From positions 26,555,343 to 26,619,342 of the forward strand of contig NC_133156.1 of assembly GCF_040802235.1 (NCBI RefSeq): a stretch of 64,000 nt of DNA. The letters run 5' to 3'. The notes beneath the pieces are model-generated. The model was not told the origin of the DNA. It searched no databases and saw only the letters and a program-made list of their open reading frames with translations. Source of the DNA: Manis javanica. Taxonomy: Eukaryota > Chordata > Mammalia > Pholidota > Manidae. Made by a program: the position numbers and the translations under genes. Shown here piece by piece: positions 38,101 to 47,100 of this stretch. Position 1 is the stretch's first letter. Each line of letters starts with the position of its first letter.

Positions 38101-41100
38101 GAGATTTGCCAAACTCTAATAAGCAAATCCATCAAAATTGATCAAACCATTATTTCTCAGAATCCCAAAACTATTACATTTCCCTATCACACATCACGAA
38201 ACTCTTAACAGGTTGTAGAGAGAGGGCTAAGGGGGAATTCCTCAATATGTACAGTTTTGATTTTCTAAGATGAAAAATTCTACAGATCTGTTGTTACACA
38301 ACTATGTGCATAGGTGACACTACTATACAGTATGCATAAAAATGGTTAAGAAGGTACATAAACTTTGTTTTGTATGGCTTTTAACTTCAAAAAAGTCTCT
38401 CATAATAAATAAAAACACAGGAAATTATAGAGAAAAAGACATTGGTTATGATTTAGAATAGCAGTTCTACAACTTCTACATAAATCACGGTAATGTTTGT
38501 TGAAGCTGCAGATGTTTTTCCCCTGAAATTCCAATTGGATAGGGTGACGAGCAACCCAGGTTAAGTAATGTGGTTAATCCATCATTACATCCTGAAAACA
38601 TTTGAGAATATCCTTTAAGCATTGAATATTGACCATTAATATTAATTAGTATTAAGGGTGTCAAACCACAACAATTAAATATTAATTTTTATCCCTGTCA
38701 AACACATTTCTATTCTGGTTGCAGGAAAAGCCTAAGATATATATACCCACACATTTATGATCTGATTACACACATCTACTGCATATTAATCAATGAAATT
38801 CTGTTACTTAAAACAAGCCTGAATTTCTATCAATTTATGACTGATCTCTAAATAAGTTTTGATATACTTTATACTTCCCCCAAGGTACTTAATGCAATTC
38901 ATTGATAGGTTAAATACTTGATAAGAAATCCCAAACCTAAGACCCTAAATAACCAGAGTAATCTTAGGACAGAGGTTACCACACTACCAGATTTCAAACT
39001 ACACTACAAAGCTATAATAAAACAGTATGGTAGTAACACAAGAGAGCACAGATTAAGGGAACGAATAGAGAGCCCAGAAATAAACCCACACTTATATGGT
39101 CAATTAATCTATGACAAGAGGAGGCAAGGATGCACAATGGGAAAAGGACAATCTCTTCAGTAAAGGGCACTGTGAAAATGGACAGCTACATGCAAAAGAA
39201 TGAAACTGGTCCACTTTCTTACACCATACACAAAAATAAACTCAAAATAAAATCAAGACTTAAATTTAAGACCTGAAATCAAACTCCTGGAAAAAAACAT
39301 GAGGAGTAAGCTCTCTGACATTTATCTTAGTGATTATTTTTTTGTACCTGTCCTCTAAGGCAAAGATAATAAAGGCAAAAATAAACAGGTGGGACTACAT
39401 CAAACTAAAAGGCTTCTGCTCACCAAAGGCAACCATCAACAAAACAAAATGGCAACCTACTAAATGGGATATAATGCAAATGATGTATCTGATAAGGGGT
39501 TAATATCCAAAATATATTTAAAAACTCAAAATTCATTATCAAAGAAGAAAAACCAAAAACCTAATTAAAAAATGAGCAGAGGGCCTGAACAGACATTTTT
39601 CCAAAGACATACAGATGGCCAATTGGCACATGAAAAGATGCTCAACATCACTCTCATCATTGGGGAAATGCAAATCAAAGCAACAAGGACATACCACCTC
39701 ACACCAATCAAAATGGCCACTATTCAAAAGACAAGAAATAACAAGCATTGGCAAAGATGTGGAGAAAAGGGAGCCGTCATACACTGTTGGTGGGAAAGTT
39801 AACTGGTGTAACCACTATGGAATACACTCCGGTGGGTGGGTGGTTTCCTCAAAAATTTAAAAATAGAACTACCAGCCAGCTTGATCAGACACCCTGTCTT
39901 GCTGGTCGTTCTTTGTGTCCCTTGCTTGTTCATTTCTGCAGGCGTCTCCGGCTACACTCCACGTTAATCCCGCGGGTCGGGACAACTGGCGCCCAACGTG
40001 GGGCCCCCCGGGACTCCTGCTGAAACGTCTGCTCGGAAGCCCTGGCCAGGCATTCATTTGAGTCACCGCACGGGTATTGACCTGATGTCGACTCTGCATG
40101 GAGAAGGATCACTGCGGCTCACCCGTCCGTAACACAGATCCTTGAGAGGTGAGTAGACGAATTCCCCAAGCAAGATTCCAGACAACCTCTTGGGTGTTCA
40201 GCAGTCCATTTGATCTTATCACTTCCCTCCAGTTTGCTGCCGCGATTTATTCCTTGTTTTGTTCACTAGTTGTTCCTCTCTGAAAACCTTGTGTTTACTT
40301 TGGGCTAACGGTCGTTCACCTCGAAGGCATACCCGGGGGACTCCAACTCCAGAGTCCCTGCCCTAGAGGGTCCGAGCAGGCGGATTGTACCTGCCGACTG
40401 TCCTACGTAAACAAGGGCTCGTCTGAGCTGACGAGAGTGGCTCCAGTGTTTCAGGACATTGATGTAATTGCAGCTAAATTGGAGGAAAGGATTCAAATTT
40501 TTACAGTGCAAGGGTTGCGGCCATAGTGATGGGCAACTCTCTGAACTCCCATGAAGTCTTCCTTACTGGACTCAAGGAGTCCCTCAGGACACGAGGAATT
40601 AGGGTTAAAAGAAAAGACCTTAGGTATTTTTTTCCTTTATTCATGAGACTTGCCCCTGGTTTCCCCTCGAAGGCACTATCAATCATAAATGTTGGAAGAG
40701 TCTGGTGATCGTATAGAAAAACCAGCTAAAGCCCAGAAATACTGCCGCCTTAACCTTAAACACTTAAAAGACTTAAAAACAGCTGTTACCAATTATGGCC
40801 CCACAGCTCCTTTTACATTAGCCTTAATTGAAAGCCTGAGTGACCGGTGGTTGACTCCTAATGACTGGCTTTCCCTAGCTCGAGCCGCCTTGTCAGGAGG
40901 AGAGTATGTTTTATGGCGCACTGACTTTGTAGAAAATTGCTGTGAGATTGCGCAGCGCAATAGTGAAAGTAAAACTTCACGCGCATGGACAAGAGATAAA
41001 CTGCTTGGGCGAAGCCCCTATGAAACAAATGAAGCCCAAGCAGCCTTCCCCCCAGGCCATTTAGCTCAAGTCCAAAACGCAGCCCTTAAAGCCTGGTGGC

Positions 41101-44100: not shown

Positions 44101-47100
44101 TGTATATGCAATTTAACTAGCAGTTTTTTAAAACCTATATATATATTCAAGTTATGTCTGTCTTTCGACATGTTCAGAGAACCCCTGAATAGTGTCTGGC
44201 ACGCTGTAATACCTCTCTTAACCCTAAGCATTTTATGTCTTCTATTGCTGTTACTAGGGCCTTGTGTCCTTCGCAGCATGTGGAAACTCATCCAACAAGC
44301 CTTAAGAGACCTGCATTATTTGAAATTGCAGGCAGCCCCCCCACTTGTAAATCATAAGATCTAAAGTCAAGTATGGTAGCCAGTGACGGGTAAGATATGG
44401 TTGAATGGTAAATACCAACCTAAGACAGGGAGTGGTCGACAGAGGACTATACCCCCATGACGGGTAATTAAGAGGTTGTACCTGCAGAAATACAGGACAG
44501 ACATAAGACCTCTGATAAAAATAACAGGGGCCGATCTAATACTGGGGCAAGCTCCTATTTATGTAGGCCGATCCAGTATTAGGGCAAGCTCCCCTGAAGA
44601 TATCAGGCCGACTCCAAAAAGAGGCAAGCTCCTGAAAAACAGAGGCCAGGTACAAAACCTCTAAACCTAAGACAGGCACCGTCTACCCAGTAGATAAAAA
44701 GCTCCAAGTTCCTGTCCCAATCCCTCCTAAAAAGAATAGAAAAGGAGGAGATGCCGGAGACCAAAAGGGCCCACACCCACAAGATGGCGGATTTCCTGCT
44801 TCTTTTCCGGGTTTGCTATTCCCGCCAGTGCCCTCCGAGACCCAATCACCTTTGTACACACTCCTGCTAGCACCACCTGGTGTCCAATCATCTTCCGACC
44901 CTCCCCTTCCTTGCTGATCGGTATAAATTAAGCCTGCTGCAAATAAACTGCGCCAGCTTGATCAGAAAAAAAAAAAAAAAAAAAAAAAATAGAACTACCA
45001 AAGGATCCAGCAATTCCACTTGTAGGTATGTATTTGAAAAAAATGAAAACACTAACTCAAAAATACATATGCACCCCTATGTTCACCTCAGCATTATTTA
45101 AAAGCCAAGATAACTGAAGAAACTTAAATGACCATTAATAGATGAATGGATAAAGACGTAGTATATATACACAATGGAATATTGCTAGGCAATTAAAAAG
45201 TGAAATCTTGATTTAAGACATGGATGGACCTAGAAGGTATTACACTTAGTGAAATTAAGCCAGAGAAAGATAAATATTTTATGATTTCACTTGTATAAAA
45301 AATAAACCAACAAAACAGAAACAGACTCATAGATACAGAGAATAAACTGATCAATGCAAGTGGGAGGAAGGGTGAGGGAATGGGAAAAAACAGGTAAAGG
45401 GTATTAAAAGATACAATCACCCAGTTATGAAATAAGATATGGGGATGTAATGTAAAGCATAGGGAATATAGTCAAAACTTCTGCAACAACTCTGTATGGT
45501 GACTGATAACTATATTTCATAATGCATAAAAATACTGAGTAGCACTATGTTGTACACCTGACACTAATGCAGTGTTGTTTATCAGTTATTCTTCCATTTA
45601 AATTTACTAATTTCAAAATTTCAAAATGAAATCCCGAATCTATTTTTTACCCATTGCAACGAAAACACTGAACCAAACAGCAACTGATGGATACTACTTC
45701 AGTAGTCCTTACAATGCAATCTATATTTAAAGAGTTATGTACTTGTTAGCTCCCACACCAAAAACAAGACCTTTCCTTTAGAAAATGACCTTTATTTTGA
45801 GGTAACGTATGCCTGCCTTCCAACAAAGGAAAAACCTGAACTCAAATTCACATGCAGTTCTGCAGATGAGCAAAGTTTTCCTTACCTGACAGTCTGATCA
45901 TAGAAGGTTCCAGAATCATCAGGTACAACCTCAGGTGTCTGCTGTCTTTCTTCAGGTTCCTCTACTTCTTCCTCAGATTCTAAATGAAAAAAGAAATTTA
46001 AATTTGTGGTTACTTAATTCAAATATACTCACTTTCAAACATCATGATCAGAAAGGCAATAAAGAAAAGCATACATATATAAAAGTAAAGACAACAGAGC
46101 AGTTTGGTAGAATCATGGCATAGCTCTAAGGACAGAAGTAAGGCTACTATAGTTAAAGAAATGGAATCTTAGATCATATTATCCATAATTCCACACAGAC
46201 TCCTCAGTGCCCTACTCTATTAAATGGAAACAAGGCTGCCTGAAGTACTTACCTATAAAGTTGTTGTATTGTTACACAATAAATATAAAGTACGTAGACT
46301 TAGCCATATAAAACACTAAAATACCAATTACTGTTAGTGTTTGGAGACAATTCTTCATGGGTCTCTTGTGTTTCTGCACATCTTAAATTGAGGCAACGGC
46401 TACCCTTTATTTCAGATTATCTTTTAGTAACATTTATACAGCAAACAGTCCTGGGAAATAAAGTCTCCCTCCAGAGCAAAGGACAGGTGTGTTTACTACA
46501 CATCATCAAAGGTTTGTTTCCTAAAACTTATGGCTCCACTCTTGTAATGCACCTCACTGCACTTCAGGTACCATCTGGACTTCTTCATGGTGTCCTGTGG
46601 AAACTGGCAAAAATGCTACCATTGTTGTTATGAGTAATAACCCATGTGCTTATGACTACGCATTCTGTATTCTACCAATATCCATTAGTAGCCTAAACTG
46701 TTACTACAGCAGCTCTGGATATTAAACCCTTTGTATGTCTTGACAATTAGAGAAGTTGTTATTAAAGAATAGAGTATAATGAAAACATTCAAGAAACGAA
46801 CCCATTATTTTCTTCAGGTCAATCTGATGCCATCAAAAAAGGTTTAGCCACATAACTTACCCTCCTGAGGCTCAGTAACAAAGCCACCAAAGACTTCATC
46901 TTGGTATCTGAAGATATCATTGTGAACATAGAACTTATTCGCAACAGAGCCCTACAATGCCAACAGAAAGTGTTCATTTACCCAGTAGACTTTTTAAAAG
47001 CCAAATAAATCACCCTAACACCAGTGGTTCTCAACTGAGGGTAATACTCTCTTCTCAATCCTAAGGAGACACAGCAATGACTGGACACATTTCAGTTTTC

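Follow-up and report, generated by a model that had tools for sequence, protein, structure and literature searches.

Human endogenous retrovirus group W (HERV-W) has processed copies with R-U5 and U3-R ends, a poly(A) tail, a TT/AAAA target motif and a short target-site duplication (TSD) of 5–15 bp (PMC5016936), and they make up 135 of 213 HERV-W loci (PMC5016936, PMC5537654). One review names HERV-W as the sole HERV group mobilised by long interspersed element 1 (L1), and states that the reason for this restriction remains to be clarified (PMC5537654). Two L1-made retrocopies of the HML-2 rec mRNA, ERVK-30 (2q32.1) and ERVK-31 (5q15), carry a duplication and a poly-A tail (PMC4351823), and SVA elements are mobilised by L1 in trans (PMC7353768). 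The locus described here is a 5.1 kb insert in a G3BP1 intron, within a 64 kb stretch of Manis javanica contig NC_133156.1 (the window). It is very probably a processed copy of endogenous retrovirus (ERV) RNA inserted via L1 in trans, the template being the transcript of a defective, pol-less class II provirus.

Ends of the insert and the receiving L1

The insert (39875–44984, plus strand) runs from R to R and on into an A-tail (Table 1). It is flanked by two exact copies of AAAAATAGAACTACCA, a sequence that is present twice on the plus strand of the window and absent from the minus strand. Abutting these on the inside are the two copies of the 15-nt sequence GCCAGCTTGATCAGA, which has no further copy on either strand of the window. 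Only two A-runs of at least 12 occur in the 64 kb, the 24-A tail being the longer, and there is no T-run of at least 12. The duplication measures 11–16 bp, depending on how many A are counted as shared with the tail, and about 18 A of the tail are unambiguous. The 16 nt of AAAAATAGAACTACCA are the longest stretch at the end of the left flank that is found again at the right border. Even an 11-mer border match did not arise by chance in any of 20,000 random draws within the window (pairs less than 300 bp apart were skipped).

U5 is seen at the left end only and U3 at the right end only. The TATA box of the 3′ copy (44922) lies exactly 30 nt ahead of the first base of R, and the AATAAA signal 23 nt ahead of its last base. 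About 30 nt is the usual distance from a TATA box to the start of transcription, and the insert therefore starts at the expected transcription start of this long terminal repeat (LTR). Judged by sequence, the ends of the insert match those of an RNA, from the expected cap site to the polyadenylation site. The leader retains a candidate splice donor (AG/GTGAGT), so the template would have been unspliced there, provided that the donor is used. A spliced RNA as template is rejected for this donor only, as AG/GTGAGT is retained at 40147.

Two G3BP1 exons on the minus strand (about 45888–45980 and 37690–37911), located with a human G3BP1 protein sequence as the query, bracket the insert, which is antisense to the gene. 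The immediate flanks belong to an L1, the left part being what we take to be its ORF2 region. When joined at the duplication, the flanks align to an uninterrupted L1 copy at 53038–53592 without a gap at the join. Only 410 of the 579 columns are identical, and the receiving L1 is therefore old; the copy at 53038–53592 is a paralogous and not an orthologous empty site. On the primed (bottom) strand the nick reads CTATTTTT/AAATTTTT, that is TTTTT/AAA (TTT/AAAAA on the plus strand), and is predicted to be a good L1 endonuclease site.

An earlier note on this DNA had described a 16-bp duplication beginning in an A-run after TTT, the same 15-nt R at both ends, a 24-base A-tail, and the lack of U3 at the left and of U5 at the right. 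It had taken these as hallmarks of L1 target-primed reverse transcription into an older L1 within a G3BP1 intron, with HERV-W as the precedent. Ends, tail, duplication, nick motif and location were all verified, and the published description of HERV-W copies (their ends, poly(A), motif and short TSD) applies here as well. Three marks go beyond that account: the 5′ end 30 nt from the TATA box, the retained candidate donor, and the L1 that rejoins without a gap.

Table 1. Features of the insert and of its immediate flanks (positions in the window; o/e, observed/expected).
Feature	Position	Strand	Remarks
Receiving L1, left part	39604–39874	+	Self-BLAST to 53038–53292, 69%
Left TSD, AAAAATAGAACTACCA	39859–39874	+	Exact 16-bp match to 44985–45000
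R, 5′ copy	39875–39889	+	Exact repeat of 44952–44966; first base of insert is the expected cap site
U5	39889–39984	+	Between R and primer binding site; final CA at 39983–39984, two bases ahead of primer binding site; left end only
Primer binding site (PBS), presumably tRNA-Lys1,2 type	39987–40003	+	Pattern found at 39987
Candidate splice donor AG/GTGAGT, leader	40147–40154	+	Pattern match; putative use as donor
gag matrix (p10) start, truncated	40529–40703	+	Gag_p10 4e-5, equal to the curated cut-off (piece 40478–40705)
gag capsid, N-terminal domain	40689–41192	+	Gag_p24 4e-40
Proline-rich frame with PPPPY	41137–41775	+	Uninterrupted, 213 codons; downstream of capsid; relatives P0031–P0033
Post-knuckle piece	41762–41878	+	36/39 identical to P0009, where zinc knuckles (nucleocapsid) precede it
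AT-rich non-coding block	41880–43320	+	GC 0.32, CpG o/e 0.19; pro-pol and most of the surface subunit (SU) expected here
env frame upstream of the transmembrane subunit (TM), probable SU C-terminal part	43321–43674	+	118-codon frame; no Pfam match
env TM ectodomain, broken frame	43656–43970	+	TLV_coat 8e-6; best match TM of avian sarcoma/leukosis virus (ASLV)
env membrane span and tail, probable	44062–44361	+	Weak matches to GP41 and TLV_coat C-terminus, 0.03, under curated cut-offs
CTE-like element (CTE, constitutive transport element)	44385–44676	+	GACGGGTAA at 44385, CCTAAGACAGG at 44419, GACGGGTAA at 44459, CCTAAGACAGG at 44666; between env and polypurine tract
Polypurine tract (PPT)	44740–44751	+	Followed directly by the TG of U3
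U3	44752–44951	+	Starts with TG at 44752; TATA 44922–44927, AATAAA 44942–44947; right end only
R, 3′ copy	44952–44966	+	Exact repeat of 39875–39889; last base at the polyadenylation site
Poly(A) tail	44966–44989	+	24-A run; first A in common with R, last five A in common with duplication
Right TSD, AAAAATAGAACTACCA	44985–45000	+	Exact 16-bp match to 39859–39874
Receiving L1, right part	45001–45291	+	Self-BLAST; alignment of joined flanks

Content of the insert and of the window

Gag is present as remnants. The capsid domain matches solved capsids, the best of them at 8e-38 to 1e-33 (presumably those of type-D and sheep betaretroviruses), and the HERV-K capsid more weakly (6e-15). The sequence jumps from the matrix part to just ahead of the capsid, and an identical join is found in the related sequence P0009. 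In type-D gag the proline-rich region lies ahead of the capsid; as the proline-rich frame follows the capsid in the insert, gag has apparently been rearranged as well as deleted. This frame has no match in Pfam or PDB and no relative among phage records, and its PPPPY motif and its place point to a gag phosphoprotein-like product. A relative of 139 aa (P0031) is identical to it at 137 of 139 residues, its odd end included, while P0033 matches it upstream of the odd end and diverges after it. Bridging comparisons from P0033 lend little weight to a normal place ahead of the capsid, being weak with P0006 (E 0.017) and of no use with P0008. Among viral contigs, no relative was found by three protein scans and a 19-nt R-U5 pattern scan.

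Other readings of this part were set aside. A host gene is not supported for the proline-rich frame, given that Pfam and PDB returned no match, and an overlap with the human G3BP1 protein (E 0.001) was dropped because it looks like low-complexity proline/glutamate similarity. A herpesvirus US2 model matched 41691–41846 below threshold (E 0.11), and this was dismissed as chance.

Between the gag remnants and env lies the AT-rich block of 1.4 kb, with a base composition like that of the host flanks; its origin may lie in host sequence that was captured or in virus that has decayed. Read from stop to stop, 41760–43335 holds 27 pieces of 28 aa or longer; 20 of them were scanned with Pfam and had no match at E 1, and pol was detected neither in these 20 nor in eight other scanned pieces of the insert. 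All scanned pieces lie between the leader and 44361, and one of the remaining seven inner-block pieces falls inside a longer scanned one. A class II assignment based on reverse transcriptase is impossible without pol, so that ‘type-D-like’ refers here to gag and the PBS only. The insert RNA falls short of a complete retroviral genome and is full-length only as a transcript. The earlier note's ‘betaretrovirus-like full-length RNA’ is thus right for a transcript running from cap to tail with a betaretroviral gag, but no pol was found in the scanned pieces, gag has deletions and seems to be rearranged, and the TM is closest to alpharetroviral ones.

The best match of the TM is that of ASLV, both with the single sequence (1e-10) and with a profile of 17 rows, comprising the window and 16 of 21 relatives (6e-16). 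Next in the profile search come the GP2 ectodomain (4n21) at 2e-7 and the TMs of mammalian gammaretroviruses and class I ERVs at 4e-3 or weaker. The CX6CC motif (43911–43937) is kept in eight of the 17 aligned rows, the window among them, and is decayed or cut in the rest; the N-glycan site NLT at the start of heptad repeat 1 (HR1) is found in 15 of the 17, again including the window. The fusion peptide appears to be flanked by cysteines, in SDC (43656–43673) and LAC (43767–43784), in a frame that is broken in the window. Of the three relatives that clearly extend to the upstream cysteine, P0010 has it too, and in P0020 and P0025 it is not evident. Overall, the TM appears to resemble the ‘avian gamma-type’ of alpharetroviruses. 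In 2013, a cysteine-flanked fusion peptide was reported to be unseen in retroviral TMs outside birds (PMC3758190), and a 2025 pangolin study describes beta-ERVs whose env is gamma-type, along with an alpha-like ERV (PMC12584738). No mammalian betaretrovirus-like ERV with an avian gamma-type TM was found among titles and abstract openings, a sample that lies largely outside the subscription literature.

The CTEs of type-D viruses such as Mason-Pfizer monkey virus (MPMV) and simian retrovirus (SRV) have AAGACA internal loops arranged with two-fold symmetry; they are bound by NXF1 (Tap) and serve in the export of unspliced RNA (PMC4330393, PMC7551171). Downstream of env in the insert, two motifs alternate in an order that did not arise once in 1000 shuffled versions of the region, nor at any other site in the window, with one mismatch allowed in each motif. 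The region 44361–44750 has a fold with a z-score of −2.48, and two of 100 shuffles fold as well, while 44480–44745 alone is unremarkable (z −1.30). At 44414–44429, 15 of 16 nt agree with the core of a published forward primer for SRV-1, and two of 500 shuffles score as well in gapped alignment. Several observations argue against a CTE. Of the two primer cores only the forward one compares convincingly, as 57 of 500 shuffles did at least as well as the reverse core (76 of 500 in a second run). The element spans 292 nt compared with 150–175 nt for CTEs, and the predicted folds do not have the full two-fold structure. Rfam, too, gave no family at the gathering score, and its single match at E up to 1 (0.85) lies elsewhere in the insert. 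The segment 44385–44676 is accordingly treated as CTE-like only. Three imperfect 27-nt repeats at 44529–44632 enlarge it. A third copy of CCTAAGACAGG in the window (55196–55206) lies outside the insert and apart from it, in what is possibly older ERV-derived sequence.

Elsewhere in the window, a direct duplication (3853–4101 and 5375–5624, 87% identical) lies upstream of an exon that we take to be GLRA1-like. Ten consensus sequences of short interspersed elements (SINEs) and one BovB piece, used as approximate queries, had no match in the window at E 1e-3. At E up to 10 the same consensuses gave weak or chance matches only, the best being MIR-like (0.034). That none of the ten SINE consensuses matched at E 1e-3 seems unusual in a mammalian stretch as long as 64 kb.

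Route of insertion and its alternatives

The insertion would have proceeded as follows. At another place in the genome, a class II provirus of type-D betaretrovirus-like character, defective and lacking pol, would have been transcribed from its own LTR, giving a capped, apparently unspliced and polyadenylated RNA of the form R-U5 ... U3-R-A(n). The CTE-like element may have helped this unspliced RNA to the cytoplasm via NXF1, which would explain how it reached L1 there. L1 proteins would then have taken up the ERV RNA in trans, and the L1 endonuclease would have nicked the old L1 in the G3BP1 intron at 5′-TTTTT/AAA. Once the poly(A) tail had base-paired with the T-rich nicked end, ORF2p would have copied the RNA back to its cap, leaving a processed ERV copy with a duplication of 11–16 bp. 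That L1 supplied the enzyme is suggested by the signature at the ends of the insert, and pol was presumably absent from the template RNA already.

The insertion itself seems to be fairly recent, because the duplications are identical at 16 of 16 positions, the tail is uninterrupted, and the CpG o/e ratios of the leader (0.69), gag (0.49), proline-rich frame (0.50) and U3-R (0.57) stand above those of the flanks (0.11 and 0.17). LTR dating is impossible for this copy. As the insert looks recent, much of the damage to gag and env may predate the insertion and have been present in the template.

The alternative that fares best accepts the route but not the template: the RNA would have been a complete gag-pro-pol-env genome that lost pol in place after insertion. 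Deletions inside old inserts are common, P0031 could be this very locus from another sample, and neither P0031 nor P0009 shows the loss of pol itself. However, the ends of the insert look young and P0031 carries the proline-rich frame with the same odd end. P0009, which is another element, has the same matrix-capsid join and post-knuckle piece, so deleted forms exist elsewhere. Loss of pol in place is considered rather unlikely.

Much less probable is a route that did not involve L1, in which retroviral cDNA was captured at a double-strand break or a retroviral reverse transcriptase primed the copy. That enzyme could have come from a class II provirus present in the cell, and the enzyme at this locus is deduced from its sequence signature. 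That signature, however, combines an endonuclease motif, an A-tail and a long duplication, which together are those of L1. Break repair usually proceeds without a duplication of 11–16 bp, and retroviral reverse transcription would begin at the PBS and rebuild the LTRs.

Integrase leaves a short duplication of fixed length beside TG...CA ends. This duplication is given as four nucleotides (PMC3621094). An ordinary integrase-made provirus, with the outer U3 and U5 deleted later and an A-run present by chance, would have the PBS, PPT, R, U3 and U5 that are all found here, but it is hardly credible. The two deletions would need to coincide to the base with the cap and poly(A) sites, an identical 16-bp duplication and a run of 24 A would have to adjoin the ends so formed, and the flanks rejoin the L1 precisely.

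Several points weigh against the preferred reading, namely a recent, L1-made copy of an already pol-less RNA. The A-tail and the TSD have bases in common, and at up to 16 bp the TSD is one base over the range quoted for HERV-W. The case for the L1 route comes from this single locus, with an empty-site comparison that is paralogous only, and the placing of pol loss before insertion draws on protein fragments and not on the DNA of relatives. As to the date, base composition interferes with the use of CpG decay as a clock: CpG o/e is 0.19 in the AT-rich block, near the host values, and 0.28 in the env part, so that these two parts stand out less clearly from the flanks.

A wider and decidedly tentative proposal, to which only a small likelihood is given, is that of a pol-less class II ERV lineage spreading by L1 in trans. 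Export through the CTE-like element and NXF1 would give such a lineage an intact cytoplasmic template without a viral helper, whereas HML-2 and other Rec-dependent class II ERVs would leave spliced copies. Its betaretroviral gag would be combined with an avian gamma-type TM, a pairing unreported for mammals in the literature found.

Relation to known systems

The earlier note had stated that processed copies of class II ERVs are seldom reported. They are indeed rare in print but not absent, the two HML-2 rec copies having been published. No report of an unspliced, R-to-R class II retrocopy was seen in the titles and abstract openings of the papers listed; in three HML papers, processed pseudogenes and the L1 machinery appear only in the reference lists, and in one survey processed copies were not told apart from proviruses (PMC4724089). 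The insert is also a warning that retrocopies are to be found among the ‘defective proviruses’ that lack complete LTRs; LTR dating does not apply to such copies, nor should they be tallied as integrations. A clean, apparently unspliced copy of a class II RNA from cap to tail would mean that the L1 route is open to ERV classes other than that of HERV-W, and makes nuclear exit of unspliced RNA a concrete variable for what restricts this route.

Like the HERV-W processed pseudogenes, which are class I, the insert has R-U5 at the left, U3-R at the right, poly(A), a TT/AAAA-type site and a short duplication. Unlike them, it comes from a class II RNA with a type-D-like gag and a Lys PBS; it yielded no pol in the scanned pieces and is known here as one copy. 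With ERVK-30 and ERVK-31 it shares the retrotransposition of a class II ERV RNA by L1. Those are copies of spliced rec mRNAs, the one at 5q15 being about 1.5 kb and 5′ truncated, whereas the insert, at 5.1 kb, extends to the expected cap and still has the candidate donor in its leader. Mobilisation by L1 in trans is also shared with SVA and SINE-R. These carry HERV-K-derived sequence, but they are composite repeats in which an LTR retrovirus is represented by a piece only, and not by an R-to-R transcript.

Type-D betaretroviruses and beta-ERVs combine a betaretroviral gag and a Lys1,2 PBS with a foreign env (PMC3621094, PMC12584738), and the insert resembles both these viruses and the bat and pangolin beta-ERVs with a gamma-type env in this combination. 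Unlike in those beta-ERVs, its TM, with an apparently cysteine-flanked fusion peptide, is nearest to alpharetroviral TMs and not to those of mammalian gammaretroviruses. The mechanism itself is a known one, and the insert is a well-preserved further case of it with an unusual passenger.

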